Shown here one piece after another: positions 2,107-26,082 of a DNA stretch of 26,082 bases. Location of the stretch: IMG/VR virus record IMGVR_UViG_3300042516_002159, positions 1-26,082 of that record. One strand, given 5' to 3'. The stretch is from a virus. The notes under the pieces were generated by a model. The model ran no database searches. It worked only from the letters and a program-made list of their open reading frames with translations, and was not told the origin of the DNA. Each line of letters opens with the position of its first letter. Position 1 is the stretch's first letter. Both the position numbers and the translations under genes were made by a program.

Positions 2107-2108
2107 AA

Positions 2109-5291: not shown

Positions 5292-5296
5292 AACAT

Positions 5297-5605
5297 TTAT
5301 CTAGCTTGATTAAATTGTTCAAATAAATTTAAAACTGTATTTAAATCAGTTGGTATTCTTAATTGAGTACCTGGTTCTGGAAATAAAGCTCCTTTAGTTG
5401 CATTGTTATTTGCCATAGCAATTACCCACCATAAAGTAGCGTCATTATAATAAGAAAAAGCTAAACTATCAAGTCTATCTCCAACTGTAGTGATAACATA
5501 CACATCAGATTCTGACAAAGGAATATTTGGATAGAACTTCATCTTACGATAAGGGCGATTCGTATATTCCGTGGTTAATATAGTTGTATTATTGTAACGA
5601 TCCAT
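5297..5605 (-). CDS. Baseplate wedge protein, gp53/LysM-like
   Basis: A 102-residue protein with a compact LysM-like fold signature. The order is YVITTVGDRLDSLAFSYYND (about residues 36-55), then ATLWWVIAMANN (56-67) and PGTQLRIPTD (78-87). The 'yy-n-da-lWWvIa-aN' core is typical of T4 gp53-type baseplate wedge proteins and related LysM baseplate proteins, which link wedges in the assembled baseplate. It begins with ATG 2 nt after the stop of the 665-residue baseplate gene and ends 5 nt before the hub start, which fits coupled expression in one operon. It is shorter than T4 gp53 (about 196 residues), as is common in minimal contractile tails. Confidence 0.8.
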   Translation of the reverse strand: MDRYNNTTILTTEYTNRPYRKMKFYPNIPLSESDVYVITTVGDRLDSLAFSYYNDATLWWVIAMANNNATKGALFPEPGTQLRIPTDLNTVLNLFEQFNQAR

Positions 5606-5607
5606 CT

Positions 5608-7605: not shown

Positions 7606-7841
7606 TACCCGTTATATTTTTTCTTTGGAGTGTATTTGTCTTTACTATCACCAATGTCTAAACGAGATGGTGTTGGTTTTTGACCAGTACCGCTAATAGT
7701 TCTCCAAGTTACATCAGGTTTACCGTCTGTTGAATAATTCAAATGTAATGAATCTGGTGGAACTGGGTTAACGCCGAATTGTTGAGGTCTAGTACCTTTT
7801 AGTCCTAAAATACCTGTTTTTAATTTGTCTAATAATCCCAT
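7605..7841 (-). CDS. Small unrecognised protein between tape measure and baseplate genes
   Basis: A 78-residue, basic, P/G/T-rich protein with no hydrophobic segment beyond a short amphipathic N-terminus (MGLLDKLKTGILGLKG). A central segment reads PPDSLHLNYS. Its stop codon overlaps the start of the 665-residue baseplate gene (TAATG), so the two are probably made in linked amounts. The upstream gap carries an ATATTTAT octamer (7857-7864), so this gene may head the baseplate transcription unit. It may be a minor baseplate component or an assembly factor; no family is recognised. Confidence 0.7.
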   Translation of the reverse strand: MGLLDKLKTGILGLKGTRPQQFGVNPVPPDSLHLNYSTDGKPDVTWRTISGTGQKPTPSRLDIGDSKDKYTPKKKYNG

Positions 7842-7856
7842 GATTGTATGTTTAAT

Positions 7857-7864
7857 ATAAATAT
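7857..7864 (-). promoter_or_regulatory. ATATTTAT octamer, candidate late promoter
   Basis: In transcription direction the gap reads aaATATTTATatt. The start codon of the 78-residue gene lies about 15 nt beyond the octamer. It fills most of the 30-nt gap between the tape measure stop and this gene. Candidate head of the baseplate operon. Confidence 0.45.
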
Positions 7865-7871
7865 TTAATTG

Positions 7872-10043
7872 TTATGCTAATTTGTATGTATTTTGTACTG
7901 ATGTAGTACTTACATCTCTAGAAAATGCATCTTTGCCATTAATGTATGCTACGGATGGGCGTGATCCTAATTGAGTAATAGCCGCTTTAACTTCATTGAT
8001 AGCTGCTATCATTGGTGTTAAATCAACTGATGTTCCTCCACCTAATATTTTGTCTGCTTTAGGTGAATTTAAAGGGATAATAGCTTCAGGACCGGCTTCA
8101 CCAACAGTTGCATTATTAATTTCACTTGTTATAATACCACCTGATGCGAATTTAGGGCCGCTATTAATTAAAGCATATACTCCTGCTACAGCGGCAGCGG
8201 CTGCTGCTAAACCTGCTAAAGCTTTAAATGGATTTGCAACAGCCCAAGCTGCTGCTATTCCTATCTGGGTTGCTAATTCTTCACCTTTCATTAAATTCAT
8301 AGCACCTTGTGCTGTTAATGCTGAAGTTGAAGCGGCAGCTTGAGCTACCTGAAATCCTAATTTTAATGATTCAAATGCTACTATTCCTTTTTGTACAGCA
8401 TATATACCAGCAAAAACAGAAGCTATACTTGTTATAAGAGGTAAAGCTTTTGTTAACATGTCTAAGAATCCTCCTAAAGGTCCTGCTACTAAATTACCAA
8501 AGAAATCTTGTAATTTTAAAACAGCTTGGTTGAATTTATCTTGTATTGCTTGTCTTTCAATTGCTACTTTAGCTTCTTCTTCAGTTATTTGAGCTAATGA
8601 TTTTCCTTGTTTTATAGCTTCCTCTCTTTTTCTTAAAGTTTCAGCTAATTCATCAGAAGTCATTCCAACAGCTTCCGCTAAGGATTTCTGTTGTATAACA
8701 TTCATTTGGGAAAATTCAGCTGCACTTCCTACATTTGCTGCTAATTCTTCTGCTAATGCTACTTGATCTCCTATTAAGGCTGCTGCTCTTGCTCTTTCTA
8801 AATTAATCTGTTTGCCTGTTATTAATTCAGCTTTTAATTCACTTTCAATTGATGATTCAAAATTTAAAAGTGATTCACCTGATTTGGCTACTTGATCTAA
8901 AGTCATACCAAATGCTTTAGCGGCAACAACGGCTTTAGCTATTCTTTCTGGGTTGTATCCTAAATTTGCAGCTAATTGGCCTGATACTTTAACAGCTTCA
9001 GCTAATGTAGCTTTAAAATTAATTCCTACTTTAAATTGGTTTCTTGCTGCTACTAATCCTTTAACAAACCCTTGATATGTTTGTTCAGATGATTTACCTG
9101 TTAATACAGATAAACGTTGTATCTGAGCTGCTTCATCTGCTTGTAATCCAACTTGTTTAGTTAATTTAATTTGAGTTTCAAGTTGATCAGTTGTAAATTC
9201 ATAAACATATCCTGTAGATGTAGCTAATTCACTAAAAGCATTTACTAAATTTTCAGTAGTAACATTTATATTATTACTGGATCGAGCAGCGGCTGCTAGA
9301 TTTTCTCTATAGGTATAAGAATCTTTTCCTAGTTGTTTTCCTAATTCTACAATCTGTTGATTTGCTTTTAAAGCTTGGTTTAAAAAGAAGGTAAGTAAAG
9401 TAAGAGGATCTGTTAATCCTTTTCCTAATTGTTTTCCTATTTCACCAGCTGCAACTCCCATTGTTCTAAAAGTACCACCACCTTTAGCAGCGACAACTCT
9501 CATTTTTCTTTCAATCTCTTCAGTATTGAAGAATTTACCTATAAATGGAACTTTATTTAATCCACTAACTAATTTACCAGTTAGACCTAATCTTCTTTCT
9601 ACTAATTCAAGTTGTTTTTCATCTTTTTTAAGAAGTTGTTCTTGAATATCTAATGATTTTAGAGCAGCAGCATAATCTTCTTCACTATATTGTAAACCTA
9701 ACAATTTAGCATGCTGCATCTTTCTATCTAGTTCCGCTCTTTTTTCCCCTAATGATTGTAATTGTTTAGCTATATCTTTTTCTTTGATAATACCGCTATT
9801 TATTCTGCCTTGGTTATGGGCAAATTCATCAGACATTTTAGCTAACCTAGTAAAAGTTCTAGTTAAGTCTTTACCCACAGCAGCCATAGTACTAGCTTCA
9901 GCTGAATCAAATGCTCCTTCAACAGCATCTCTTAATACATTAGCATAATTAGAAGCAACGGACATTAATGTGTCTCTTATATACACATTTTGTTCGTCTA
10001 TTGCTTTTTGAGCAGCTGCAGTATTTGATGTTGATGTAGCCAT
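7872..10043 (-). CDS. Tail tape measure protein
   Basis: A 723-residue protein with the usual build of tape measure proteins, which set tail length and leave the tube ahead of the DNA. Residues 1 to about 170 are charged and helical (coiled coil, many K/E/L). The middle is Ala-rich helical. The last third has hydrophobic stretches (LITSIASVFAGIYAVQKGIV and an Ala-rich segment ending in VAGVYALINSG). The segment FASGGIITSE...GEAGPEAIIPL (ending near residue 658) is a classic tape-measure C-terminal signature. At about 1.5 angstrom per residue the length would predict a tail near 100 nm. It sits after the gp26/gp51-like chaperone-type genes and before baseplate genes, the expected place. A terminator-like hairpin and a promoter octamer lie just upstream. 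Confidence 0.93.
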   Translation of the reverse strand: MATSTSNTAAAQKAIDEQNVYIRDTLMSVASNYANVLRDAVEGAFDSAEASTMAAVGKDLTRTFTRLAKMSDEFAHNQGRINSGIIKEKDIAKQLQSLGEKRAELDRKMQHAKLLGLQYSEEDYAAALKSLDIQEQLLKKDEKQLELVERRLGLTGKLVSGLNKVPFIGKFFNTEEIERKMRVVAAKGGGTFRTMGVAAGEIGKQLGKGLTDPLTLLTFFLNQALKANQQIVELGKQLGKDSYTYRENLAAAARSSNNINVTTENLVNAFSELATSTGYVYEFTTDQLETQIKLTKQVGLQADEAAQIQRLSVLTGKSSEQTYQGFVKGLVAARNQFKVGINFKATLAEAVKVSGQLAANLGYNPERIAKAVVAAKAFGMTLDQVAKSGESLLNFESSIESELKAELITGKQINLERARAAALIGDQVALAEELAANVGSAAEFSQMNVIQQKSLAEAVGMTSDELAETLRKREEAIKQGKSLAQITEEEAKVAIERQAIQDKFNQAVLKLQDFFGNLVAGPLGGFLDMLTKALPLITSIASVFAGIYAVQKGIVAFESLKLGFQVAQAAASTSALTAQGAMNLMKGEELATQIGIAAAWAVANPFKALAGLAAAAAAVAGVYALINSGPKFASGGIITSEINNATVGEAGPEAIIPLNSPKADKILGGGTSVDLTPMIAAINEVKAAITQLGSRPSVAYINGKDAFSRDVSTTSVQNTYKLA

Positions 10044-11161: not shown

Positions 11162-11647
11162 TTAGAAATTCAATACGCAGTAATCCATAGCTACAGTTAC
11201 TGATAAGTTAATAGCTGCGTCGTTAGCCCAATCGTATTCACCGAATGTAGCTGTTTTAACGTAAGCACCTTTAACTATCCACTCACCTACTACGTCGCCT
11301 ACTGGTCCTAAGATATTTAAAGTTAAGTCTTTCTTATAAAAATCAGAATAACCATCACGGCCAGTTACTGATTCATGAGCCAAACGAGCCCATTCCATTA
11401 CTGATTGAGCACCAGATGGAGTTACTGGGTCGTATAAATTCAAAGTCATGTCATTCCAACGTACTTTTCCTTTAATTTTACGGTATACGTTGATATGGTC
11501 TAAAATAATTTCACCAGCTTCGAATCCAGGTGCAGTAGCTGATTTAATCAAGTATGATGGAATACCATCGATATACATGATAAAACGGTTCTGAACTTTT
11601 GGTTCAAATGCTGTAAACATTATTTCGTTAGCGTCTAATACAGGCAT
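11162..11647 (-). CDS. Tail tube protein (gp19-like)
   Basis: A 161-residue protein, essentially the length of T4 gp19 (163). It begins MPVLDANEIMFTAFEPKVQN and contains the typical tube-protein blocks RFIMYIDGIPSYLIKSATAP, VRWNDMTLNLYDP and GEWIVKGAYVKTATFGEYDW. Tube proteins stack as hexameric rings inside the sheath to form the DNA channel. It lies directly downstream of the sheath gene with its own promoter octamer, and is followed by a strong terminator, consistent with very high expression. Start chosen at the ATG after ACATAAA; no Shine-Dalgarno motif is present. Confidence 0.95.
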   Translation of the reverse strand: MPVLDANEIMFTAFEPKVQNRFIMYIDGIPSYLIKSATAPGFEAGEIILDHINVYRKIKGKVRWNDMTLNLYDPVTPSGAQSVMEWARLAHESVTGRDGYSDFYKKDLTLNILGPVGDVVGEWIVKGAYVKTATFGEYDWANDAAINLSVTVAMDYCVLNF

Positions 11648-11695: not shown

Positions 11696-13420
11696 TTATG
11701 CAGGGAACGTAGCGCCAGTTGGTAATACATTGAAGTTTAAGATAATAAATTCAGCAGTCTTAGTTGGTTGGATATAAATCTGACCTACTAATTGGTTTCT
11801 ATCAATTACATCAGCTGTATTGTTTGTTTCATCCATTACAACTTTGTAAGCAAATAAACCTTGACGTTGTACTACTGATTCCATGTATGGATTAACTTGA
11901 GCTAAGAATCTATTACGAGTGATGTTGGTATTTTGTTCAAATACTAAGTTATTAGCTACTTGACCAATAAATCCTTTTAACGCAATCAATAAACGACGAA
12001 CGTTTACGCGATCTAAAGCTGTTGCTTTACGTTGTAATGTCTTTTGACCAAATACTACAACACCTTCTCCAGGGAATGTAGCTAATGGGTTAACATTACC
12101 ATTGTATAATACATCACGATCGTTTTGAGATAATTTTCTTTCAGCTTTTAATACTGATGGAACACCACCACGATTTAAACCTGCAGGAGCAAACCATTCA
12201 GCACCAACTTGATCGTTGAATGCTAAAACACCAGCCATTACTGTTGATGCTGGAGCCCAAACTGCTTTACCTAAACCGCTTGAGTATAATTGAATCCAAG
12301 GCCAGTAAGCAGCAGCGTAGTTGCTAGATTGACCAGCAGCAGCTGTTGTAGCGGCTGTTACAACTTGACCATATAATGTAGTATCTACAATTGCAATAGC
12401 ATCGCCTCTGTTCTCACAAGTTGAGATCATAGTTGATACTGCACTGTTACCTAAAGTAACACCTGGAGCAATTAATACATTAAATTGATATTCGTCTTTA
12501 TTATTTAGTAAAGTAAAAGCAGCATTGTAAGAAGCTGAATCAAATCCTTGAATGTTGTTGTTTGTAATAACTTCGTTCATTGCTTGTCTAATTGACGTTG
12601 CAGCTACACCACCAGTAAATGAACCTTCAGAAGAACCACTACCTAAAGCAGGTAATGAACCACTATATAAAGTTGATTTATATAAACCATTGTTATCGAT
12701 TGAATCAACTTGTGGAGTTGTAACTGATGCTACACGAATATATTGAGAAGCATTAGCATAAGAACCAGTTTGATCAATGAATGGAAAACCTGCAATATCT
12801 AAACGATAAACTGGTTTAATATCACCAATTACTCTAGAGATAAAGTTAGGTAAAGCTGGGTCTAATGATAAATTAGGCCATGTTTCTATATAGTTAGGTT
12901 GATTAGCGTTGTCATTACCTTGACGAACTGCTAAACTAAATGTACCGCTACCTGTATTTACGCTTGTAATTTCCCAACGAACGTTAGTTGCACTACCGCT
13001 TGCTAAAGCACCACTTACTGCACTAGAAGTGTTGTTCATTATATCACCCCAAGCTAACGTTTCGATAGTAAATGAACTACCCGTTAAACTTAAAGCCCCA
13101 ACAGTAGCACTAGCGTAAGTACTCATACTAGTACTGCCACTAGATACAACTCTAGTAACTAACAATGTTTGACCACCGTTGTTAAAGTAATCTTTAGCAG
13201 CTAATGAAGTAAGATATTCGTAGTAGTAACTACCACTTTTGAATGTTTCTCCAAATTTAGACACATACTCAGTATAAGAAGTAACGTATGTAGGAACGAA
13301 TGGTTGACCTAATACTGTAGGACCAACGATTGCCGTTGAAGTTCCTTGAATACCTCTTTGAACTAATGATTGGTCAGACTCATTTTGGAATACACCAGGA
13401 GATAAAATTTTTTCTGCCAT
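11696..13420 (-). CDS. Contractile tail sheath protein (gp18-like)
   Basis: A 574-residue protein that forms the contractile outer layer of the tail. The N-terminus (MAEKILSPGVFQNESDQSLV) followed by GTSTAIVGPTVLGQPFVPTY is the standard sheath opening, with the SPGV motif. Further marks are KFG...YYYEYLTSLAAKDYFNNGG early on. The C-terminal domain around ERKLSQNDRDVLYNGNVNPL, KALDRVNVRRLLIALKGFI-type sequence and the ending FIILNFNVLPTGATFPA also fit. It is somewhat shorter than T4 gp18 (659). The central region is Ser/Thr/Gly-rich, as expected of the variable surface insertion. The gene is immediately upstream of the tube gene, the conserved order. Its 5' leader is unusually long for this window (about 78 nt) and contains a dyad and a promoter octamer. 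Confidence 0.96.
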   Translation of the reverse strand: MAEKILSPGVFQNESDQSLVQRGIQGTSTAIVGPTVLGQPFVPTYVTSYTEYVSKFGETFKSGSYYYEYLTSLAAKDYFNNGGQTLLVTRVVSSGSTSMSTYASATVGALSLTGSSFTIETLAWGDIMNNTSSAVSGALASGSATNVRWEITSVNTGSGTFSLAVRQGNDNANQPNYIETWPNLSLDPALPNFISRVIGDIKPVYRLDIAGFPFIDQTGSYANASQYIRVASVTTPQVDSIDNNGLYKSTLYSGSLPALGSGSSEGSFTGGVAATSIRQAMNEVITNNNIQGFDSASYNAAFTLLNNKDEYQFNVLIAPGVTLGNSAVSTMISTCENRGDAIAIVDTTLYGQVVTAATTAAAGQSSNYAAAYWPWIQLYSSGLGKAVWAPASTVMAGVLAFNDQVGAEWFAPAGLNRGGVPSVLKAERKLSQNDRDVLYNGNVNPLATFPGEGVVVFGQKTLQRKATALDRVNVRRLLIALKGFIGQVANNLVFEQNTNITRNRFLAQVNPYMESVVQRQGLFAYKVVMDETNNTADVIDRNQLVGQIYIQPTKTAEFIILNFNVLPTGATFPA

Positions 13421-14777: not shown

Positions 14778-15362
14778 TTATCTTTTTATATAAACGCTAT
14801 GGAACCCATCAACTTCACACTCAAAGCCCTTTTCTAATAATAAATTTGTTAATTTTGAATATTCAAAGCTCTCAGGTCTATCCACTTCAAACATAACAAG
14901 TCTAAGTTGATCGAAGAATTCTTGATATTGATGATAAATTGTAGATATACATCCCTCGCAATCAGCAATCAATACATTAAAGGTTAAATTAAAATCTTTC
15001 TGCAATTGCCACAAGTCATGTATCTGAACAGTTCCGTTTTCATCTTCAATGGTATATGAAGAGAAATCCCATGGTTGGAATCTTTGTTTTGTTTTTGATA
15101 TTATTCCTTTAACAATAGTAAAATCGCAATCATTGATTTTTCTGTTGTTTTCAAGAGATTCCCATACACTTTCATCTGGTTCAAGGCAAATAACATTTTT
15201 CCCTTCAACAATTTTATTAACCGTAACTGATGTGCAGCCGTATCTAGCTCCAAGCTCAAGCACCATGTCATCACTTTTGATATATTTTTGTGCCTGTTGC
15301 CATTCTGTTACTTCGTAGTAATTGTGGTCAATAATTCCACCATTAGGATGATAAATAATCAT
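14778..15362 (-). CDS. FkbM-like SAM-dependent methyltransferase
   Basis: A 194-residue class I methyltransferase. The SAM-binding motif I is VLELGARYGCTS (residues 34-45). The acidic end of beta 2 is CLEPD (59-63, E61). The FkbM-type mark is IADCEGC (132-138), followed by VMFEVD (156-161) and the C-terminal strand. FkbM enzymes usually O-methylate sugars or small metabolites. In phages they are often found beside tail fibre genes, where modification of a glycan or of a virion protein has been proposed. It follows the fibre/adhesin cluster, from which it is separated by a 54-nt gap holding a promoter octamer. The substrate cannot be read from sequence. Confidence 0.82.
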   Translation of the reverse strand: MIIYHPNGGIIDHNYYEVTEWQQAQKYIKSDDMVLELGARYGCTSVTVNKIVEGKNVICLEPDESVWESLENNRKINDCDFTIVKGIISKTKQRFQPWDFSSYTIEDENGTVQIHDLWQLQKDFNLTFNVLIADCEGCISTIYHQYQEFFDQLRLVMFEVDRPESFEYSKLTNLLLEKGFECEVDGFHSVYIKR

Positions 15363-15416: not shown

Positions 15417-15584
15417 TTATTTTGAATAATAATCTGGAGCTGCCGTGGATGTGTCTTCTGAACTGAATTTCATTATAATAGGTGCATTATAACTGCTTGT
15501 AATACTAAATAGTAAATACGTTAATGTAGCCAATAATGCCAATTTTAATGTGGTTTTTACTGCGTTTAAATTAATTGTTATCAT
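15417..15584 (-). CDS. Small single-helix membrane or secreted protein (55 residues)
   Basis: An ATG at 15584-15582 overlaps the TAA of the LamG adhesin gene (TAATG), and the frame runs 55 codons to a TAA at 15417-15419. The protein begins MITINLNAVKTT and has one hydrophobic segment, LKLALLATLTYLLFSIT (about residues 13-29), preceded by a lysine. A short polar tail ends in APDYYSK. This is the shape of a signal peptide or a single transmembrane anchor. The TAATG junction is the same as that seen at 7605, supporting real coupled translation. It could be a small envelope protein, a lysis accessory or a spurious hydrophobic frame; no family is recognised. Confidence 0.6.
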   Translation of the reverse strand: MITINLNAVKTTLKLALLATLTYLLFSITSSYNAPIIMKFSSEDTSTAAPDYYSK

Positions 15585-16459
15585 TATAGTCCGAATTTAG
15601 CTTTAGTTGCGTTATAATTTTGTAATACCTCAGCGTCGCTTAATGCTCTATTGTAAATCAGATAGTGACCAAGTGCTGCGTTTAAAAATATTTGTGGATT
15701 TCCATTTCCAGTATATGATGCTCCTATTGCATAAGACCTGTTTGGTTTATTTTGAACTCCTGATTTAGATGTACTGGTGTCTAGTGATCCATTTATATAC
15801 ATTTTTTGGGTTGTTCCATCGAATGTTTGGGTAAGTTGATACCACTGGTTGTAGTTATAAACTTCGTGTAAATCACTGTTTGACGTATTTGCACCAGTAG
15901 TAATTCTTGTACTCATATAGCCAATTGCTAAACCATTTAAATAAAGTTCAACACCTTGGTATTGACTATTTTCCCATCCTGTACTACCTAATGCCATTAC
16001 TTTTGGAGAAAATGTATTATTATTAAACCAAGCAGATGTTGTTGAATAATCTGTTGCTGGTGTTACATTTAATACATGGAAACCTCCTCCTAAAAAGGCA
16101 GCAGCAGGCGCTGTTGTTCCAGTATATTGATAATATCTAATTCCTCCAGATGTTGTAATAACGGGATTAGACCCACCATTAAATGTGGTTGGTGTTCCAT
16201 ATTGTCCAGAGTTAACTTTATTAGTCCATTGAGAGTTAGTTGCCGTTCCTGTATCAGAAGCATCTAAATGCCAAGTTAATCCGGATTGTACTACACCAGA
16301 AGCATCATATCCATAAAATTCACTAATGGCATCTGGGGATGATTTTCCAGCGTTAGCACTAAGTTGTCTTAGGCTATATGATGATGCAAAACCACCATTA
16401 TTTACTTGTTCATTTCTAATATCTGCTATACTTAAAGGTCCACTACTTGGTAAGGCCAT
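15584..16459 (-). CDS. LamG/concanavalin-like tail fibre adhesin
   Basis: A 291-residue protein. The N-terminus, ALPSSGPLSIADIRNEQ followed by SLRQLSANAG and PDAISEFYGY (to about residue 50), is a short module that often opens phage adhesins of aquatic viruses. The rest, about residues 58-291, has the LamG/ConA-like beta-sandwich pattern: GLTWHLDASD at the start, WYQLTQTFDGTTQKMYINGS in the middle, and YNRALSDAEVLQNYNATKAK at the end. Such domains bind carbohydrates, so this is a likely receptor-binding tip or accessory fibre. Its start overlaps the end of the upstream S74 fibre gene by 17 nt in a different frame, so the two are probably made together. Confidence 0.82.
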   Translation of the reverse strand: MALPSSGPLSIADIRNEQVNNGGFASSYSLRQLSANAGKSSPDAISEFYGYDASGVVQSGLTWHLDASDTGTATNSQWTNKVNSGQYGTPTTFNGGSNPVITTSGGIRYYQYTGTTAPAAAFLGGGFHVLNVTPATDYSTTSAWFNNNTFSPKVMALGSTGWENSQYQGVELYLNGLAIGYMSTRITTGANTSNSDLHEVYNYNQWYQLTQTFDGTTQKMYINGSLDTSTSKSGVQNKPNRSYAIGASYTGNGNPQIFLNAALGHYLIYNRALSDAEVLQNYNATKAKFGL

Positions 16460-18584
16460 TGATTATGGATTTAAGTTCTTCAATTTGTGTTTGTTGTTCT
16501 TTGATTGCTTCAACTAATAATGCTGTTACGTTGCCATAAGATACACCGTATTTATCTGCTTCTTCATTATATGTTACTACTTCTGGAACTGTTTCTTTAA
16601 CTTCTTGAGCTATGAAACCTATCTTTTTTGTTTTATCTTCTAAATCAGTTCTGTTATATGAAACACCTCTTAAATTCATCACCTTGCTTAAGGGGTTAGT
16701 TATAGTCAATACATTTTCTTTAAGTCTAAAATCTGAGAAAGCTGTTATATCTCCTACTGCTGTTATAGCTCCACCAAAAGTAGCTAAACCATCACTATTT
16801 ATAGTTAAATTATGTCTAGCTGCTGTGTTGTCATAACACATATAAAATCTACTATCACCAACACCCATTGAGAATTTTCTTGTTGTACCACCATTAGCAC
16901 CTTCTAAATTAATTACAGCATACCCACTACCATACATTGATAGTTGTTTTGTAACTGAATCATTACCCCAAGCAGTATTTAATGGGCTTGTTGTGTTTAT
17001 ACCTACTATACCACCGCTTGTTATAGTAAAAAAGGATGTAGCATTTCTTCCTATTGAAAATTTATCAGTACCAACACCAGAAGTTCCAGGTCCAATATCC
17101 CAATAATGTGTTGCAGCTGTATCAGAAGCCATTCTTATAGTAGCACCTGTCATACTACCTCCAAAACCGTTTACACCATTCGCAGTATATGAAATATGCA
17201 TGTTCATATGCATAACCCATCTATCTACAGTACTTCCATATAATGTTGGATAAGTACTGTTTCCACCCCATGATGATGCAATTGTTCCTAAGGTTGCAGA
17301 ATAAGAACCACCACTGTTTGCTGTAATAGCTCCTGTGCTAGTTAAAGTACTAAAAGTAGTTTGAGATGTTGTTGCTGAATTACCACTAATATTTGTTTGG
17401 TCACCTGTGTTTGTTCCACTTAAGTTAGTTGCACTTAAAGATCCAGGAAAACTTGTATTACCAGATCCATCTAATAATGTAGCTGTTCTTGTTAATGATG
17501 CAAATTCACCTGTATATTGTCTAACATAGATAGGTTCTGTACCATCATCTGCTGTTGCAATTTCAACAAAACCAGCATTTGAACCACCACCAGCTCTAAT
17601 TCTAAAAAAATCATTAGTACCTATGGTAGCAAAGACTAGGTTGCCCTCAGACCCTGCTGTTATTGTTTGATTAATAGCGGCTGCAGTACCTGTAGATGTT
17701 ATATAACCAGCACCATTCGTTAGCTGGTTGTTATTTGTAATTGTGTTTGCAATAGTAATTCCAGTAGAACCATTGTATGAAGTTCCACTTAATCCAGTTC
17801 CTATAGTTAATGTAGCTAAATTGCTACCTAAAGCAATTCCTGAAATTGTACTATTAGTTAATTTAGCATTAGAAACAGTTGCATCTGTGATTTGAGATCC
17901 ATTAATAGATCCTGTTAATGAATTTGCTGTTATAGATCCTGTAACACTTACAGATCCTGTAAACACGTGTGTGTTAGCACTTATAGACCCAAATCTAGTA
18001 GATCCAGTTACAAAATCAACACTTGATGTTATCGTTTGTACAACTAACGTTTGTGCCGTTATAGTTCCTGTTGCTGTAATAGATCCTGAAGTTAAAAGAG
18101 ATCCAGATAATGTTTGAGTACCTACAAATGTATTTGAACCTGTTGTAGCAAAAGTACCATTTAATGCTGTTTGTGATGCAGTATAACTTAATAAAGATGC
18201 TGTTGCAGCATTTAATGATGTAATAGAGCTATTTAAACTAGATGTTGCTGTGTTTAAAGATGCAGTTGCATTGTTTAACGATCCTATAGATGAGCTAAAT
18301 GAGGCAGTTGCCGTATTTAAAGATGCAGTTGCTGCATTTAAAGATGTAACAGAGGCATTTAAAGAAGATGAAGCTGTAAATAGAGTATTAATATTTGTTG
18401 TATTGCTACTAGTGTAGTTATACAAAGAAGCAGTTGATGCATTTAAAGATGCAGTTGCTGAGTTTAAACTATTAATGCTTGAAGCTACAGATCCAGACCA
18501 TATGCTAGATGATTGTAGGGTGTTTGTTACATCTACTCCATTTAATATAAATGAGCCTGTTACGTTGGCGCCTATTATTTTCAT
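16443..18584 (-). CDS. Long tail fibre with C-terminal S74 intramolecular chaperone
   Basis: A 713-residue fibre. The N-terminal part (about residues 37-131) is built of seven-residue SLNxATA units. The shared fibre hinge follows at about residues 174-210, then repetitive S/T/G/N-rich shaft. The last roughly 99 residues form a peptidase S74 (endosialidase-type) chaperone: FSDFRLKENV with the Ser617-Lys622 pair, then KKIGFIAQEVKETVPEVV and ALLVEAIKEQQTQIEEL. S74 domains trimerise the fibre and then cut themselves off. The gene is the last long fibre in the cluster and overlaps the LamG adhesin gene. A promoter octamer lies in its short leader, unlike the two fibre genes just upstream of it. 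Confidence 0.9.
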   Translation of the reverse strand: MKIIGANVTGSFILNGVDVTNTLQSSSIWSGSVASSINSLNSATASLNASTASLYNYTSSNTTNINTLFTASSSLNASVTSLNAATASLNTATASFSSSIGSLNNATASLNTATSSLNSSITSLNAATASLLSYTASQTALNGTFATTGSNTFVGTQTLSGSLLTSGSITATGTITAQTLVVQTITSSVDFVTGSTRFGSISANTHVFTGSVSVTGSITANSLTGSINGSQITDATVSNAKLTNSTISGIALGSNLATLTIGTGLSGTSYNGSTGITIANTITNNNQLTNGAGYITSTGTAAAINQTITAGSEGNLVFATIGTNDFFRIRAGGGSNAGFVEIATADDGTEPIYVRQYTGEFASLTRTATLLDGSGNTSFPGSLSATNLSGTNTGDQTNISGNSATTSQTTFSTLTSTGAITANSGGSYSATLGTIASSWGGNSTYPTLYGSTVDRWVMHMNMHISYTANGVNGFGGSMTGATIRMASDTAATHYWDIGPGTSGVGTDKFSIGRNATSFFTITSGGIVGINTTSPLNTAWGNDSVTKQLSMYGSGYAVINLEGANGGTTRKFSMGVGDSRFYMCYDNTAARHNLTINSDGLATFGGAITAVGDITAFSDFRLKENVLTITNPLSKVMNLRGVSYNRTDLEDKTKKIGFIAQEVKETVPEVVTYNEEADKYGVSYGNVTALLVEAIKEQQTQIEELKSIINGLTK
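17955..18065 (-). repeat. Shared fibre hinge module, copy 1
   Basis: Encodes about 37 residues (core TITAQTLVVQTITSS, then VDFVTGSTRFGS, NTHVFTG) present in all four long fibres. Nucleotides differ mainly at third positions between copies. Confidence 0.85.
18192..18476 (-). repeat. Heptad-like SLNxATA repeats in fibre coding sequence
   Basis: About residues 37-131 of the S74 fibre repeat a seven-residue unit (SLNSATA, SLNAATA, SLNTATA, SLNNATA and variants), interrupted near residues 54-73 by an Asn/Thr-rich stretch. The period of seven suggests a trimeric helical shaft. At DNA level the units are imperfect 21-mers. Confidence 0.75.
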
Positions 18585-18597
18585 TATTGTATTTTAT

Positions 18598-18605
18598 ATA
18601 AATAT
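18598..18605 (-). promoter_or_regulatory. ATATTTAT octamer, candidate late promoter of the S74 fibre gene
   Basis: In transcription direction: aaaATATTTATataaaatac, with the ATG 13 nt beyond the octamer. It is the only octamer inside the fibre cluster between long fibre genes. Confidence 0.45.
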
Positions 18606-18612
18606 TTTTATT

Positions 18613-20574
18613 TTACCCTACTAAATATCCTGTAAAGTAACAATAGTTTTGGTTTCCATGGATTGTTAAATTAAATCGATTGTATACTTCTACATACTGT
18701 CCTGCTGTTAAATTTAAAAGAACAGTTGCATTATCAACATAATATCCTCCATTACCTGTAGTACCAGCAACATATTCTGCTCTATTAAATGAATATGCTG
18801 CTGTAGAACCATTTACTCTTATCTCAAAAGCATCATCCATTTGTTGTCCATCAGGTACACTTTCCCAAATAATACATGCTGTAAAATTATATATTCCTGT
18901 TACAGGTGCTGTAAATCTTCCAGTTGATGCACTATAATGCCCTCCAACATTAAATCCAAACCCACTAGTAGAATTGAATGCGATGATAGTACCAGCTCCC
19001 GGAGTGTATGATGTACTTCTTCCTGCTCTAAATGCTGGTTGATATTGTTTTGTAACTGTACCTGAAGATGAGATACGCATGCTTTCAATAACAGTTCCTG
19101 CAGTAGCTGTATAAAATCTTAATTCAATATTATTTCCAGAAGCAGGAGTATTTCTATAAGCTGCTATTTCTGCTGTAGGTATACTATTACCGCTATACCA
19201 AGTAATTGAACCCATATTATGAGCAACATTAATGTCTCCTCCTGTTCCTGAGTTATTAATGTTTATTATTCTGTTAGTAGTAGTACCCCATGTTGTTTGT
19301 TTTGAAAAATGAAGCATTGAAGAAGGGGATGTTTCATTTACACCAATATTACCTGCACTACTTATACGCATTCTTTCAGTATCTGATGTTCCAAATCTGA
19401 CATCTAATCCATTTAACATTATTGGTTGGTAACTTCCAACTAATGCAGAGTCAGTACCATGGATTGTAGACATGTTGGGACTATTAGTTCCACCATTATC
19501 AAAACGAATACCATAAGTAGCTCCAGAAATACCTGCTGTTTGGCCTTCAGAATTACTTTTTACTTGAAGCATTCTACTTGGATTATTAATACCAATACCA
19601 ACACTTCCTGAATTAGTAATAGTTATTCTTGGAGTATCGTTAGTAACAATTCTTAAATCAGTATTTGTTTGTGTTCCAATGGATATTGTAGAGGCTCCAT
19701 TAGCCACAGCAAATATACCTCTTAAAGTATTTGCACCATTTGTAACATATAATGTTGTATAACCAACACCACCATCACTTAAATGTATTGTTCTTTCTGT
19801 TGCACTTCCTAATGGAGAGGTTGTACTTATACCAACATTACCACTACCATCTATTCTTAATCTTTCAACTATATCAAATGGAGATGCAGATTGTCTAGCT
19901 TCAATAGCAAAATAAGGATTTGATCCTGATATTACTCCTGAAACTAAATTAACTCTTGAACTGATACTAGCTGCTTGAGTTATTCTTATTCTTGTTTGTT
20001 GAGAAGTTCCAGCTACTTCAGGGCTAAATACTTCAAATACTTCATTAGGACTTGTAGTTCCTATACCAACTCTTCCACTTGAACTAACAAACAATCCTCC
20101 AGGATTCATAGTAACAGAACCACTAAATACATGTGTGTTGTCTAACAACGATCCAAATCTAGTACTACCAGTCACGAAATCTACAGACGAAGTAATAGTT
20201 TGTACTACTAACGTTTGTGCAGTTAATGTTCCAGCAACAGTAAATGCATTTGCAAAAGACGCTGTTTGAGCAGCAACGGCATTTGATGCAGATTGAGCAT
20301 TTGCTACAAATGAAGCTGTTTGTGCTGTAAGCACATAAGATGCACTTTGTGCATTTTGAACAAATGATGCTGTTTGAGCAGCTAAAGCATTAGATGCACT
20401 TACTGCATACGATGCAGATAGGGCATTAGAACCACTAATCACACCAGTGGTTGTGATAGCACCTGATGAACTAATGTATAGTAAAGTGGTTGAACCACTT
20501 ACTAGTGAGATATTACCTGCGGTATCGTATTGTACTATATTGGTTAAGCCTGATGCTGATTGATTTTTACCCAT
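18613..20574 (-). CDS. Long tail fibre with C1q-like tip
   Basis: A 653-residue fibre. Residues 1-70 closely match the N-terminus of the 785-residue fibre (SGSTTLL, ISSSGAI, ISGSNALSASYAVSASN). Residues 53-106 are ASxxxNAQSxSYVL-type repeats. The shared hinge lies at 116-152. The shaft contains repeated SSGRVGIGTTSP-like turns (VGIGTTSP, VGISTTSP, VGIGINNP) typical of beta-helical phage fibres. The last roughly 140 residues look like a C1q/TNF-like jelly-roll: PAFRAGRSTSYTP, then NVGGHYSASTGRFTAPVTGI, GIYNFTACIIW and a final YFTGYLVG. C1q folds are trimeric binding heads. There is no S74 chaperone. The tail-fibre-assembly-like gene lies 12 nt upstream. Confidence 0.87.
   Translation of the reverse strand: MGKNQSASGLTNIVQYDTAGNISLVSGSTTLLYISSSGAITTTGVISGSNALSASYAVSASNALAAQTASFVQNAQSASYVLTAQTASFVANAQSASNAVAAQTASFANAFTVAGTLTAQTLVVQTITSSVDFVTGSTRFGSLLDNTHVFSGSVTMNPGGLFVSSSGRVGIGTTSPNEVFEVFSPEVAGTSQQTRIRITQAASISSRVNLVSGVISGSNPYFAIEARQSASPFDIVERLRIDGSGNVGISTTSPLGSATERTIHLSDGGVGYTTLYVTNGANTLRGIFAVANGASTISIGTQTNTDLRIVTNDTPRITITNSGSVGIGINNPSRMLQVKSNSEGQTAGISGATYGIRFDNGGTNSPNMSTIHGTDSALVGSYQPIMLNGLDVRFGTSDTERMRISSAGNIGVNETSPSSMLHFSKQTTWGTTTNRIININNSGTGGDINVAHNMGSITWYSGNSIPTAEIAAYRNTPASGNNIELRFYTATAGTVIESMRISSSGTVTKQYQPAFRAGRSTSYTPGAGTIIAFNSTSGFGFNVGGHYSASTGRFTAPVTGIYNFTACIIWESVPDGQQMDDAFEIRVNGSTAAYSFNRAEYVAGTTGNGGYYVDNATVLLNLTAGQYVEVYNRFNLTIHGNQNYCYFTGYLVG
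20119..20229 (-). repeat. Shared fibre hinge module, copy 2
   Basis: Encodes GTLTAQTLVVQTITSS, VDFVTGSTRFGS and NTHVFSG, residues 116-152 of the C1q-tipped fibre. Nearly the same protein as the other copies. Confidence 0.85.
20257..20418 (-). repeat. Nonapeptide NAQSASYVL-type repeats in fibre coding sequence
   Basis: Residues 53-106 of the C1q-tipped fibre consist of nine-residue units of the type A-S-F/Y-V-x-N/T-A-Q-S/T, giving imperfect 27-bp tandem repeats. Confidence 0.75.
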
Positions 20575-20586
20575 TTATTATTGCTT

Positions 20587-20886
20587 TTAATTGCTAGCGT
20601 CAATTCTAGCTTGTGCTCTTTTTAATAATACTTCTTCTGGAATTGGTGTTCCTGTTTCTGATTGGCGTGTTATATACCAATCTGTCTCTGCTAAATATTG
20701 TTTAGCATTTAATCTTTTTTGAATTGCTTCATACTGTTGAATTTCTTCTTCAGTTGGTGGGGTAAATAAAGGATTTACAGTATGTACTTCTTCACTTACC
20801 TCTGTACCATCTAAAATTTTTTCAAATTTTGGATTGATGTAATGTGTAATTCCATTTTCATCTACTTTTTTTATAAATTCACTCAT
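20587..20886 (-). CDS. Tail fibre assembly-like protein
   Basis: A 99-residue protein. The C-terminal half (AKQYLAETDWYITRQSETGT, then PIPEEVLLKRAQARI) carries the pattern 'yL-eTDWy-iR--E-G--iP--v--kR---R' of phage tail fibre assembly (Tfa-like) and related proteins, which help fold or attach fibres. The N-terminal half is a small polar region with VDENGITHYINPKFE. It sits between two long fibre genes, 12 nt downstream of one and 12 nt upstream of the next, which matches this role. Family-level call only; which fibre it serves is not shown. Confidence 0.7.
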   Translation of the reverse strand: MSEFIKKVDENGITHYINPKFEKILDGTEVSEEVHTVNPLFTPPTEEEIQQYEAIQKRLNAKQYLAETDWYITRQSETGTPIPEEVLLKRAQARIDASN

Positions 20887-20898
20887 ATAATAATTTTA

Positions 20899-23256
20899 TT
20901 AATAAACTCTAGTTGTTGTTGATGTCCAAGAATAAGTCATTATTTCAAGAGCTTGAACTGTTGTAATAGTATCAGTACCACCAAAAAATGTAATACTACC
21001 CCATCTGTTTGATGTATTAGTATTAATAGTATCTACTACAATTTCTAAATAGTTACTGTTTTGGTACATTGCAACTATTGATCCACTTAGATATCCTTGA
21101 GATACACCTCCAGTTCCACCATCAATATACCCACCACCAAGACCTTCTATAACTCCTGCTATATATTGGTATCCTAATACTTTAATCCAATACATCATAG
21201 TACCAATTGTATTAATTTTAACATGAAGATATCTATCAGCAACGTTAACTGCAGATACTGTTCCTATAATAGAATACCCTCCAGTTATACTAGATCCAAA
21301 CCACTGTTTATAAAATATAGTTCCTCCACTTGTAATACGCATTCTTTCGGCAAAAGATACAGTATTACCTGCTGTTCCAGAGGATGCATTTGCAAATGAC
21401 ATTTCACCACCTTCTATTCCTAAAAAAGAAGCAGGAGTACTACTAAATCTATATGTAAAAGCTGTACTACCTGCAGTGATTGTTGCATTCGTAGTTAAGT
21501 ATAAATTTGATTTCCAAGGAGCTCCAGCAATAGTATTTCCCTGTCTACCTATTTCAAAACTTCTATAGTCAGCAGTTGGTGTACCACTTGGTGAAAAGTT
21601 ACCCATTGCAATACTTCCATCACTACCAATATTAAATCTTAATAAAGCAGAAGTATTTGCTGCATTACTTGTATTTGCATAAAATCTAACGGAGCCATCA
21701 TTTGCATATCCATAACCTGATATAGTTCCTGTTGAGTTGTGAATAGGACTTCCGTTATTCCAATTTAAATTGTAACCACCACCAAATCCACCACCATTAT
21801 CTAATGTTGCTATTCTAGCAAATGGTGCTCCTAATCTAAATTCAGTATCAGATGAAATAAAGTTTGGTGTATATATAGTGCTTGAAAAGGTAGCTGCTCC
21901 GCCGTCAGCAATAGTAAATCTATCAGATGTACCTAATGGGTCTTGTCCTATTTTAAATTTATCACTATCACTATTGTCAATTCCAACATACCAAGAACTA
22001 CCCGGAACTCTATATTCACTTACTGCATCTCCAGTTCCTGCATTTTCTATTTTAACTATTGGTGTTGTTGTTGATGTATTATCATTAATATGGAATAGTC
22101 GGTTAGGGGTTGTAGTTCCAATACCAACAGCCCCACTACTACTAATAAACATTCTAGTTGTATAACTAGAGCTTGTATTTAAATAAATATTTTCAATTGC
22201 ACTTATGTAAATTTCACCTTCACCAACTCCATTACCTGATTTTAATGTTAAACTTCTCCAGGCAAGCAATCCTAAATCTCTACCAGCAGCTGTATTTGGT
22301 GTGGTAGATACTAAATAATGACTTCTAGCTTCAGAACCTAAAGTTAATTGAATACCGGTTGATGAAGTTGAAGATGATGATAGATGAAGAAGTTGTGTTG
22401 GGTTATTAGTGTTTATACCAACATAACCACTACTATTAATATACATAGCAGAACCACCACCTATAATAAAATTGTACGGATTATTACTATAGAGAACATT
22501 ATCGTAAGCTTTACTACCATTAAAAAAGGCACCTGCACTACTTCCTTCTTGGCCTACATATAAATTACCACCCGTATTTGTAAATCGGATATAATTTGGA
22601 TTTGCACCTATTGATGATGGAGTGGTATTTATTCCTATTCCTATAAATTTACTATATCCATTAACATCTAAAGCAACTCCTGGGTTTGTAACTCCAATAC
22701 CAACACTTCCTGCAAAAGCAGCTATGGAACCTGTTTGGTAAATACTACCAGTAAACACGTGAGTGTTTGAGCCTGTAGAACCAAACTGAGTAGAACCAGT
22801 AATTGTACTTACTGATGAAGTAATAGTTTGTACCACCAAAGTCTGCGCAGTTAAAGTACCAGCAACAGTCAAATTATTAGCATAAGATGCTGTTTGAGCA
22901 GCAACTGCATTTGATGCAGATTGAGCATTAGCAACAAATGACGCTGTTTGAGCATTTAAAACATAACTTGCACTTTGAGCATTTAACACATATGAAGCAC
23001 TTTGTGCATTTAACACGTAGCTAGCAGATTGTGCATTCAACACATAACTAGCCGTTTGTGCAGCTAATGAATTAGATGCAGACACTGCATATGATGCAGA
23101 TAAAGCATTTGATCCTGAAATTATACCTGTTGTAATAATAGCACCTGAGGAGCTAATAAATAATAGTGTAGTAGAACCACTTACAACACTAACGTTGCCG
23201 TTGTTGTCGTATTTTAGTATATTATTTATAAAGCCGGTGTCGCGTGTTTTGCTCAT
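20899..23256 (-). CDS. Long tail fibre with unrecognised tip
   Basis: A 785-residue fibre. The N-terminus matches that of the C1q-tipped fibre (NGNVSVVSGSTTLLFISSSG). Residues 53-124 hold the longest run of NAQSASYVL units, and the shared hinge is at 134-170. The shaft has VGIGVTNPG, VGINTNNP and VGIGTTTP turns. The last roughly 140 residues, beginning near FYKQWFGSSITGGYSIIG and ending TYSWTSTTTRVY, are Gly/Tyr/Ile-rich beta sequence including GVIEGLGGGYIDGGTGG. I do not recognise this tip and it lacks S74 and C1q signatures. It is probably a receptor-binding head. The gene ends 12 nt before the Tfa-like gene and starts 1 base after the stop of the neighbouring S74 fibre. Confidence 0.87.
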   Translation of the reverse strand: MSKTRDTGFINNILKYDNNGNVSVVSGSTTLLFISSSGAIITTGIISGSNALSASYAVSASNSLAAQTASYVLNAQSASYVLNAQSASYVLNAQSASYVLNAQTASFVANAQSASNAVAAQTASYANNLTVAGTLTAQTLVVQTITSSVSTITGSTQFGSTGSNTHVFTGSIYQTGSIAAFAGSVGIGVTNPGVALDVNGYSKFIGIGINTTPSSIGANPNYIRFTNTGGNLYVGQEGSSAGAFFNGSKAYDNVLYSNNPYNFIIGGGSAMYINSSGYVGINTNNPTQLLHLSSSSTSSTGIQLTLGSEARSHYLVSTTPNTAAGRDLGLLAWRSLTLKSGNGVGEGEIYISAIENIYLNTSSSYTTRMFISSSGAVGIGTTTPNRLFHINDNTSTTTPIVKIENAGTGDAVSEYRVPGSSWYVGIDNSDSDKFKIGQDPLGTSDRFTIADGGAATFSSTIYTPNFISSDTEFRLGAPFARIATLDNGGGFGGGYNLNWNNGSPIHNSTGTISGYGYANDGSVRFYANTSNAANTSALLRFNIGSDGSIAMGNFSPSGTPTADYRSFEIGRQGNTIAGAPWKSNLYLTTNATITAGSTAFTYRFSSTPASFLGIEGGEMSFANASSGTAGNTVSFAERMRITSGGTIFYKQWFGSSITGGYSIIGTVSAVNVADRYLHVKINTIGTMMYWIKVLGYQYIAGVIEGLGGGYIDGGTGGVSQGYLSGSIVAMYQNSNYLEIVVDTINTNTSNRWGSITFFGGTDTITTVQALEIMTYSWTSTTTRVY
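22747..22857 (-). repeat. Shared fibre hinge module, copy 3 (most divergent)
   Basis: Encodes GTLTAQTLVVQTITSS followed by VSTITGSTQFGS and NTHVFTG, residues 134-170. The core is identical; the middle differs from the other three copies. Confidence 0.85.
22885..23100 (-). repeat. Tandem 27-bp repeats encoding NAQSASYVL nonapeptides
   Basis: Residues 53-124 of the 785-residue fibre. Four consecutive YVLNAQ units are almost identical in protein but vary at synonymous sites. A natural place for copy-number change. Confidence 0.8.
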
Positions 23257-23257
23257 A

Positions 23258-26082
23258 TTATATTATATTGTTGCGTTCTAATTTTTCTTGTAGTGCTGTG
23301 ATTAGTGTTTGTTGTTCTTGGATTGCTTTTACTAAATAAGGTATTAAGTCGGCATCTATAGATTTCATCATTTCACCTTCTTCAAAATATTGTTTAAATT
23401 CACCAGAAGGAATATTTTCATTAACATGACCAGCAAATACCTCTTCAAATTCTTGAGCAATAAAACCTGTTTTAGTTTTTCCTAAATTATTCTTATATTC
23501 AAAATGAGAAGGTTTTAATGCACATAATTTCCCAATAGCATCATTTATTGGTCGAATATTATCTTTTATTTTAATGTCTGAGGTTTGTTGCCAAGTAGTG
23601 CTGTTATTGTAGTTAAATACGCTACCATCTCCGTTAAAGAAAGCAGCTGTTCTTGGTGATCCTGAACCACCCCCACTATATACTTTAAAATACATTACAT
23701 TACCAGATCCACCACCTGCAGTAACAGTAGCATCTATACCAATCCATCTATCTAATTGCTGGCCTGTTGCATTAATATCTTGTTGAGCTCCGTATTTTAT
23801 CATATTGTCTACAGCACCATCATAACCAAATGTAGTTGCTTTAGCAATGTTTCCTCCTTGAACTAGTAATCTATTGTTTGGTGAACCACTCGTTCCTGAT
23901 CCTATTCCTACATTACCAGTAGGATTTATAGTTAAAGCAGTATTAGTAATACCTGTTGCATATGAATTAGAAGTACCAAATGTTATATAAGTTCCATCAC
24001 CAAATATTCCTACACCCATTCTTGCTAAGGGAACACCGTAAGAAGTAGAACCAAAATCAATAGTGTTATATCCATCACCTGTATAACCTTGACTTTGTAA
24101 ATATAATTGGTTTGGTGTTTGTGTTGTAAAAGAAGCTAATCTTGTTTTATATACAGTTAAAGTTGCTGCAGGGCCAGTAGTTCCGATTCCAACGTTACCA
24201 CCATCGTAAGCTAATGATATATTAGCTGCCTGACCAGTATCATAATTTTGAATACGAGCTACTGTGCCCGATCTATCAATTCGCATCTGAGACGTTCCAG
24301 CAGCAGAAGCTACCGCAGTTGTACCACTAAATGTAGCACCTACTGCCGTTACACTACTTGAGAATGTAGCAGCACCAGTATAAGCTATTTTTAACCCACC
24401 CGTACCATTGGGGTAAATATTAATGTCTGTATCTGTACCAATGGCTGCTGTTTGGAATGTCCAAGCAGGAGTTCCACCTGCTGTTAATCTAAAGTATAAT
24501 TCTTTTGCTTGTGCAGATGCGTTTTGTCCACCTAAAGTAAATATTGTTTGAATAGCATCTTGCGTAGCACCATAAATCGTACTTGGTGCGTTTGCTCTAA
24601 TGCTACTTGAGAATATAGCACTTGAACCAGTCAAGGGACTTGCAAATGTAGTAGCACCATTAAAGGTTTGAGAACCGCTCAGTAATGCAAGTGTACCTGA
24701 GTTGTCAGGCAGTGTGTATGTTCTTCTTGTGTTGTCTGTTAATCCATCAAACCTTAATATAAAGTTTTTATATGTAGATACTCCTGTATAACCAAAAAAA
24801 TCAAACGCATTAAAAGAGGCAGCTATACTAGAATAACCATTACCTTTTGCCAAATAAGCTGCATCTTGTCTTATGCTTATAACACCACCTAATCCTGCTG
24901 ATCCATCACTTATTAGGTATCTAGATGTTAAATCAAAATTACCTAAGTTAACGTTAGCTGTAGTTGAAAATCCTGAACCTGTGATAGGGCTTGAAGATAT
25001 AATAGAACCACTTACACTAACACTTCCAGTAAACTGATGAGTATTTTCACTTATAGATCCAAATCTAGTCGACCCAGTTACAAAATCAACACTTGAAGTT
25101 ATTGTTTGTACTACAAGCGTTTGTGCTGTTAAAGTACCCCTAACAAGTAAATCGTCAGCTGAAGATGCTGTTGAAGCAAAAGATGAAGAAACAGCATTTA
25201 AAACATAGGAAGCAGTTTGTGCTGTAAGTACATAGCTAGCAGTTTGTGCTGTAAGTACATAAGATGCTGTTGTAGCACTAGGTGTTGAATTAGCGAATGA
25301 AGCAGTTCCTAATAATGAACCTGTTATAATAGCATTAGCACCACTAATAGTAATAACATTACTACTTGTAATGCTGCTTGAAGTATTAAAGTATGCAAAT
25401 TGATTTGCAGTACCTATGCCTCCAATACCGCTAAAAGCGCCTACTTGGTATGAATAAACGAATACATCTAAAATATCATCAGCTGCACTTGCTGTAGCTA
25501 AAGTAAAGAAAGTACCGTTGTTTGCGGTATATTCTCCATTTGATAATCTAGAACCATTATAGAAAATATCTATTAATCCTGGTGTATATGATGCTGAGAA
25601 TACTGTTTGGCCTGCGCTTGCTGTAAATGTAGTTAATGCTCTTAAAGCATTGTTTGTAACACCACTTGCTGGTTGATAAACAACAAATTCAACTATATCA
25701 CCTGCAAATGATCCTGTTGTAAGAATAATTTGTGTACCTGAAAGGTCTGTGTATTCTACTCCACGAATTAATTTAGTACCATTGATAAAGGTATCAATTA
25801 ATCCTGTAGTGTAACCACTAGGAATGTTAAATGTATTTTGACCTGCAGATGCAGTTACTACCTGATTTAATTTAATTGCAGTTAATGGAGTTTGAGCTAA
25901 AAGAGATCCAGTTGCATCAGCAACAATATATCTCACTCCAGTTCCTGATAAGTTAGAAACTAATAATGAACCTGTAATTTCAGCAGATCCAGAATATGGA
26001 AATCCACCTCCAGATAAACTGTAAGATGAAGTTAAAGAGAATGAAGCTGTTGCAGCGTTATTAGCGTATGATGCTGTAACAG
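23258..26082 (-). CDS. Long tail fibre with duplicated domain and S74 chaperone (cut by right edge)
   Basis: The frame is open from the stop at 23258 to the window edge. A GTG at 25936 is only an internal Val codon, because upstream codons continue fibre-like sequence (AATASFSLTSSYSLSGGG, then ITGSLLVSNLSGTGVRYIV). At least 940 residues are therefore encoded here and the true N-terminus lies outside. Visible order: S/T/G-rich start, two copies of a roughly 60-residue TASAGQ...GLID.F.NG..L domain (25855-25673 and 25624-25448), a few SYVLTAQTA units, the shared hinge (25138-25028), a repetitive shaft, and a C-terminal S74 chaperone. The S74 part has SDIKIKDNI with the Ser/Lys pair, KTKTGFIAQEFEEVF, and LIPYLVKAIQEQQTLITALQ. 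The S74 domain should trimerise and self-cleave the fibre. Confidence 0.9.
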   Translation of the reverse strand, partial: VTASYANNAATASFSLTSSYSLSGGGFPYSGSAEITGSLLVSNLSGTGVRYIVADATGSLLAQTPLTAIKLNQVVTASAGQNTFNIPSGYTTGLIDTFINGTKLIRGVEYTDLSGTQIILTTGSFAGDIVEFVVYQPASGVTNNALRALTTFTASAGQTVFSASYTPGLIDIFYNGSRLSNGEYTANNGTFFTLATASAADDILDVFVYSYQVGAFSGIGGIGTANQFAYFNTSSSITSSNVITISGANAIITGSLLGTASFANSTPSATTASYVLTAQTASYVLTAQTASYVLNAVSSSFASTASSADDLLVRGTLTAQTLVVQTITSSVDFVTGSTRFGSISENTHQFTGSVSVSGSIISSSPITGSGFSTTANVNLGNFDLTSRYLISDGSAGLGGVISIRQDAAYLAKGNGYSSIAASFNAFDFFGYTGVSTYKNFILRFDGLTDNTRRTYTLPDNSGTLALLSGSQTFNGATTFASPLTGSSAIFSSSIRANAPSTIYGATQDAIQTIFTLGGQNASAQAKELYFRLTAGGTPAWTFQTAAIGTDTDINIYPNGTGGLKIAYTGAATFSSSVTAVGATFSGTTAVASAAGTSQMRIDRSGTVARIQNYDTGQAANISLAYDGGNVGIGTTGPAATLTVYKTRLASFTTQTPNQLYLQSQGYTGDGYNTIDFGSTSYGVPLARMGVGIFGDGTYITFGTSNSYATGITNTALTINPTGNVGIGSGTSGSPNNRLLVQGGNIAKATTFGYDGAVDNMIKYGAQQDINATGQQLDRWIGIDATVTAGGGSGNVMYFKVYSGGGSGSPRTAAFFNGDGSVFNYNNSTTWQQTSDIKIKDNIRPINDAIGKLCALKPSHFEYKNNLGKTKTGFIAQEFEEVFAGHVNENIPSGEFKQYFEEGEMMKSIDADLIPYLVKAIQEQQTLITALQEKLERNNII
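25028..25138 (-). repeat. Shared fibre hinge module, copy 4
   Basis: Encodes GTLTAQTLVVQTITSS, VDFVTGSTRFGS and NTHQFTG. Nucleotide sequence is closest to copy 1 (both read caaaatcaacacttga on the plus strand). Confidence 0.85.
25448..25855 (-). repeat. Internal duplication of a ~60-residue fibre domain
   Basis: Copy one (25855-25673) and copy two (25624-25448) both run TASAGQ-x-x-F, GLIDxFxNGxxL, GEYT or GVEYT, then GTxxxLxT and a final D-I/D-x-V-F/V-Y. This is a common tandem domain in phage fibres; the two copies have diverged considerably. Confidence 0.75.

Follow-up and report, generated by a model that had tools for sequence, protein, structure and literature searches.

T-even phages possess a single distal fibre/adhesin locus, in which, as Tetart and colleagues are said to have described in 1998, recombination between conserved motifs swaps the adhesin. 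The locus described here is comparable in that a conserved motif serves as the seam, a different adhesin lies beyond it and the backbone is inherited. However, the seam recurs in all the paralogous fibres of an array, and tips move from one slot (a fibre group defined by its N-terminus) to another. The T-even arrangement, with a gp37 tip and a separate gp38 adhesin, also differs from the locus in our window (the whole 26,082-base stretch of DNA that was analysed), where no gp38-like gene was detected among the array ORFs with Pfam and PHROG.

In the Ackermannviridae (CBA120, S117), the tips of the branched tail-spike complex are exchanged via homologous recombination at conserved 5' ends, and up to four spikes are present, with recognised XD (gp10-like) docking domains (PMC11414711). 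The present array is similar in having several receptor-binding proteins per locus, each with its own conserved N-terminus, but it contains 4 to 12 long fibres, one universal ~55-aa module, and S74 or G2 chaperones. No gp10-like match was obtained in Pfam or PHROG for the fibres or for the long first gene of a related contig (G001), such domains being of a kind that often needs profile-profile comparison. Since gp10-like domains were not recognised by these searches, the array is provisionally not assigned to the branched-spike family.

For the jumbo Klebsiella phages, the published excerpts give 10-11 depolymerases in PhiK64-1/RaK2, whose corresponding genes differ in their middle and C-terminal parts (PMC6872550), and 14 fibres, hyperbranched, in phiKp24 (PMC9700779). 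These phages, as portrayed in the excerpts, resemble the present one in their large receptor-binding protein sets with standard N-terminal units; they differ in that theirs are enzymatic anti-capsule spikes docking by gp10-like domains, and the excerpts describe no universal internal module of the present kind. Marine phage metaviromic islands contain tail-fibre C-termini and C1q domains that under-recruit reads and vary among co-occurring phages (PMC3909814), but these pelagiphage islands involve single fibre and C1q genes, unlike the ordered array with a shared seam found here. The large Vibrio phages of Schizotequatrovirus have seven tail fibres and recombination hotspots at the fibre genes, according to an excerpt of their description (PMC12028318), which, unlike what is seen here, does not present these fibres as tandem slots joined by one module.

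The window is a low G+C stretch of a T4-like myovirus, from a record cut at both ends. Pfam and PHROG placed the sheath (11696-13420), the tube (11162-11647) and baseplate genes on the minus strand. The best named relative by sheath is Flavobacterium phage immuto (51%), and a megablast of positions 5600-26082 against named phages gave zero matches; the source phage is uncultured, T4-like and aquatic. Upstream of the tail genes, positions 15584-26082 are filled by four fibre genes (f1 to f4), a Tfa-like gene and a LamG adhesin, closely packed. Our main reading, to which we assign a probability of about 0.75, is that several fibres form an ordered apparatus and that ordinary homologous recombination exchanges their tips, which would make it a variant of the multi-fibre and tip-swap systems already known. 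The features are as follows:

23258-26080, minus strand: fibre f1, at least 940 aa, slot MIIDSP; its 5' end lies past the window end
25442-25855, minus strand: pair of tandem beta-type repeats within the f1 anchor; limits read from the sequence
25004-25171, minus strand: shared module (seam) in f1, aa 304-359; module HMM
23423-23581, minus strand: S74 intramolecular chaperone of f1, dyad SDIKIK; Pfam PF13884 and motif
20899-23256, minus strand: fibre f2, 785 aa, slot MSKTRD; ORF and N-terminus
22726-22893, minus strand: shared module in f2, aa 122-177; module comparison and HMM
20902-21339, minus strand: orphan tip of f2, aa 640-785; no relatives and no Pfam match
20587-20886, minus strand: Tfa-like gene, 99 aa; PHROG 4912
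18613-20574, minus strand: fibre f3, 653 aa, slot MGKNQ; ORF and N-terminus
20098-20265, minus strand: shared module in f3, aa 104-159; module HMM
18619-19035, minus strand: C1q-like tip of f3, aa 514-652; Pfam PF00386
16443-18584, minus strand: fibre f4, 713 aa, slot MKIIG; ORF and N-terminus
17934-18101, minus strand: shared module in f4, aa 162-217; module HMM
16575-16736, minus strand: S74 chaperone of f4, dyad SDFRLK; Pfam and motif
15584-16459, minus strand: LamG adhesin, 291 aa, last slot of the array; Pfam Laminin_G_3 (1e-14) and slot order
16295-16459, minus strand: N-terminus of the LamG gene, LPSSGPLS
15626-16054, minus strand: LamG domain of the adhesin; Pfam Laminin_G_3

The original prediction had named four successive fibre genes with an internal Tfa-like gene and a LamG adhesin, and all six are present on the minus strand. 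Four fibres is the count for the window, but this is only a minimum, as f1 is cut by the contig end; the array probably holds more than four, because G011, the closest relative with an array (sheath 90% identical in aa), has three additional fibres upstream of its f1. Since the 5' end of f1 is cut, its slot was taken from homology to L152/G011 and L157/G003; its beta-type repeats are kept in all aligned members of that slot (alignment A3, mean column identity 75%). The start of the LamG gene overlaps the end of f4. Fibres f2 and f3 also have a common N-terminus, and f1 and f4 each have their own.

Outside the array, a methyltransferase-like gene (PHROG 8156, 4e-8) was found at 14778-15362, between the LamG adhesin and the tail genes; G011 lacks it and has a DUF7936 gene in that place. 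Window positions 2109-10043 correspond to 1720-9838 of G011 (L153), where three long genes (1060, 665 and 723 aa) are just 32-42% identical, while the genes flanking the block on both sides are 71-93% identical. Judged by these identities, the tail/baseplate region has a putative second block that is mosaic or changes fast.

Pfam S74 (PF13884) matched the C-termini of f1 (1.1e-11) and f4 (1.6e-13), both above the cut-off, and in both copies the Ser-Lys dyad, five residues apart, is intact. This serine-lysine dyad belongs to the self-cleaving intramolecular chaperone (PMC3742443), and self-cleavage is predicted for f1 and f4 from their motifs. The S74 of f4 also matches the corresponding region of a long-tail-fibre distal subunit of solved structure (6f45). 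The predicted succession of heads (S74, unknown, C1q-like, S74) stands as domain assignments by Pfam, but S74 is a self-cleaving chaperone and not a head; with the dyad kept, the binding tips of f1 and f4 would be the parts just before S74. The tip of f3 is a C1q domain (PF00386, 1.5e-11) and shares 52% identity with a tip of Synechococcus phage S-SRM01. For f2, no significant Pfam match was obtained, and its tip had no relatives among IMG/VR or phage records and no convincing relative among solved structures; a single-sequence AlphaFold model of this tip was too poor for use (pLDDT 37). The Tfa-like gene, located between f2 and f3, matched PHROG 4912 (tail fiber assembly, 3e-8) over profile positions 110-183 of 226, that is, the C-terminal Tfa region alone; the N-terminal half of the profile is missing, so it is not a full-length Tfa. 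It is missing from this position in relatives, including G011.

A hinge common to f1-f4 had also been proposed, and one module of ~55 residues, 'GTLTAQTLVVQTITSSVDFVTGSTRFGS..NTHVFTGSVSVTGS', was indeed found in each of the four, as four 137-nt copies of which the other three are 66-81% identical to the reference copy. Its HMM detected 234 copies, distributed over 155 ORFs, in the window and IMG/VR contigs. In IMG/VR the module occurs once per gene in tandem arrays, which reach up to 12 fibre genes in related contigs (the 52-kb G001 has 12 consecutive fibre genes, each with the module), and several times per giant fibre, up to six. A module query against named phages gave a sole, weak match, in Microcystis phage Mel-JY01 (3e-4), and the string VVQTITSS was absent from the literature searched. 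The AlphaFold model of the module (41 sequences) was weak (pLDDT 68.5, pTM 0.29), as expected when one chain of a presumed trimer is modelled.

Synonymous identity between slots within the module is ~0.42, which is background and within the range on both flanks, indicating that the module is kept by protein-level selection and not by recent copying. On the same grounds, gene conversion among the modules of one genome was rejected as the general explanation for their similarity; L078, whose three modules share exact stretches of up to 47 nt, may depart from this rule. Within a genome, exact DNA matches from module to module had medians of mostly 11-14 nt, and the longest, that of L078, compares with at most 36 nt in other genomes. 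These short matches suggest that a slot more likely exchanges with its counterpart in a co-infecting relative than with the phage's own other slots.

Giant fibre ORFs of ~2600-3250 aa with 3-6 module copies were observed in L090 (6086-15847), L104 (8081-17602), L115 (4496-13288) and L109 (5480-13357), and several giant fibre ORFs have an N-terminus of the type LKRSAVPGK..LGELAINT or MPxWKK. A 2357-aa fibre with equal length and module positions was present in L144, L145, L146 and L148, on contigs from four different samples, which shows that tips can also be stable.

Grouping by N-terminus gave about ten slot types, in the order MANEF, MILNSP, MIIHNP, MISYFP, MNLYQP, MIIDSP, MSKTRD, MGKNQ, MKIIG and LamG (LPSSG start), of which the window contains the last five. 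This order, counted by eye on maps, was constant on the ten contigs bearing two or more slots, with gaps and zero inversions, and these contigs carry many different sample numbers. In L103 (contig 3300028027_000399), the f1 and f2 slots are separated by two additional LamG genes, which suggests that whole adhesin genes are also gained.

Distinct conserved anchors in a fixed order would favour the presence of several fibres per virion. The strongest alternative, although an unlikely one, is that a virion holds no more than one or two of the fibres at a time, the others acting as donors. The shared module allows such donation, and f2 and f3, given their common N-terminus, might compete for one docking place; against this, anchors that vary from slot to slot are conserved across phages in any given slot, the order is fixed and the genes are all open, as expected if each fibre has its own docking place.

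The multi-fibre apparatus with exchangeable tips is best seen by comparing the same slot in different phages. In f1, f2 and f3 of G011 the anchor and module are kept, and the tips are unrelated to those of the window; f4, the LamG adhesin and the Tfa-like gene are absent from its array. The f3 proteins are 93.6% identical over aa 1-156 (97% in the anchor) with nothing alignable after, the DNA match stops at position 20113, in the last codons of the module, and a C1q tip in the window is replaced by an S74-type tip in G011. The f1 proteins are 78.7% identical up to aa 360, one residue beyond the module. Contigs G001 and G002 have collinear slots with anchor DNA 87-98% identical and nearly all tips replaced. 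Across the 68 same-slot pairs (each taken from two contigs with anchors of 60% identity or more; pairs not mutually independent), 56 had no alignable tip, and S74 was present in just one member of 37. For the predicted tip exchange at the hinge, the pattern set beforehand as speaking against it was identical tips with no hinge exchange; the opposite was obtained, with a tip common to both members in only two of the 68 pairs.

Synonymous sites locate the seam. In same-slot pairs, synonymous identity is ~0.81 ahead of the module and falls to ~0.6-0.67, starting at the module's first codons; past the module, protein similarity declines. With gapped alignment, synonymous identity was lower in the module for 29 of 30 pairs and 11 of 12 slots (0.84 to 0.64). 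Pairs with unrelated downstream parts fell from 0.80 to 0.62 (lower in 23 of 24), whereas those with a conserved downstream part showed no drop (0.63 to 0.75; 17 pairs from 12 contigs, some redundant). Between the window and G011, the synonymous identity of f3 is 0.84 in the anchor and 0.65 in the module, compared with 0.85 in the sheath, suggesting that the anchor was inherited with the backbone and that the gene is of other origin from a point inside the module onward. Not every seam coincides with the module end: some pairs remain similar up to ~100 aa downstream.

Rapid point-mutation divergence of the tips under selection, without exchange, the module being merely the last conserved domain, could be expected to give alignments that tend to stop there, as the module is conserved whatever tip follows. 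This explanation is nevertheless very improbable: one slot can hold a different fold or chaperone (C1q versus S74-type in f3; S74 in the window versus a self-cleaving Peptidase_G2 in G003 as the terminal domain of the f1 slot), synonymous identity drops within the module in pairs with differing tips but not in pairs that retain them, and near-identical tips occur on unrelated anchors. The latter include tips 93% identical between L086 (MIIHNP) and L039 (another slot), and 89% identical between G003 (MILNSP) and L039 (MLIHN). The change from S74 to Peptidase_G2 also indicates that tip and chaperone move together.

An equally poor prospect is a programmed switch, in which a dedicated recombinase or diversity-generating retroelement determines which single fibre is expressed or moves one tip. 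Several tips behind a common sequence do resemble cassette systems, but neither reverse transcriptase (RVT_1), serine recombinase nor tyrosine integrase was found in 18 relatives, several of them larger than 130 kb. Every fibre is on one strand with its start intact and tight spacing, and the module offers no conserved DNA site, its between-slot synonymous sites being at background. The array thus differs from the invertible fibre cassette of Mu/P1, with no serine recombinase in those relatives and no inverted copies, and from diversity-generating retroelements in the lack of RVT_1. Homing endonucleases were rejected as a general driver, because most arrays have no GIY-YIG/NUMOD3 gene and HNH_3 was found nowhere; one GIY-YIG/NUMOD3 gene lies inside the G003 array, adjoining the f1 slot (L157 8598-9320), and may help exchange there.

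Least probable of all is that, at the repeated module, assemblers jumped from one fibre gene or strain to another: all comparison loci are metagenome assemblies and the module is repeated within genomes, but exact module matches within genomes are shorter than the usual large assembly k-mers, one slot order recurs on ten contigs with many different sample numbers, and the module DNA of exchanged pairs has diverged (synonymous identity 0.62), unlike a false join at an exact repeat.

Under the preferred reading, of an ordered apparatus with recombining tips, each fibre gene would have a slot-specific N-terminal anchor and a linker, followed by the universal ~55-aa module, a beta shaft and a tip, in many cases with a self-cleaving chaperone as well. 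The fibres would be trimers docking at distinct places, several per virion, and S74 would be removed once they have trimerised. The module would act as a fold-neutral joint under purifying selection on the protein. In co-infected cells, homologous recombination via phage RecA/UvsX could join a new tip to an old anchor, and since the module is common to all fibres, the anchor-tip chimera could work; attachment specificity would be rapidly changed or widened. RecA/UvsX-like genes were found in 8 of the 15 relatives searched.

A broader proposal, which we hold tentatively and at somewhat less than even odds, is that the ~55-aa joint is the interchange standard of a widespread aquatic T4-like lineage. 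Any tip starting with the joint would fit any anchor, drawn from a common tip pool, and ordered arrays of up to a dozen or more slots, together with giant multi-joint fibres, would give many specificities per virion at once.

What appears to be new is that one universal module is common both to all slots and to the giant fibres in a large uncultured lineage. The long-held idea of swapping at a conserved seam while the remainder of the virion is inherited becomes measurable for each slot separately in a common uncultured phage group, the anchors marking vertical descent and the tips being the mobile parts. With tips replaced beyond the joint, the phage should be able to attach to different bacteria. 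Should a single virion carry several of the fibres, these phages would be natural generalists using multiple receptors, and the module would provide a ready-made boundary for predicting tip-phage pairing in metagenomes.
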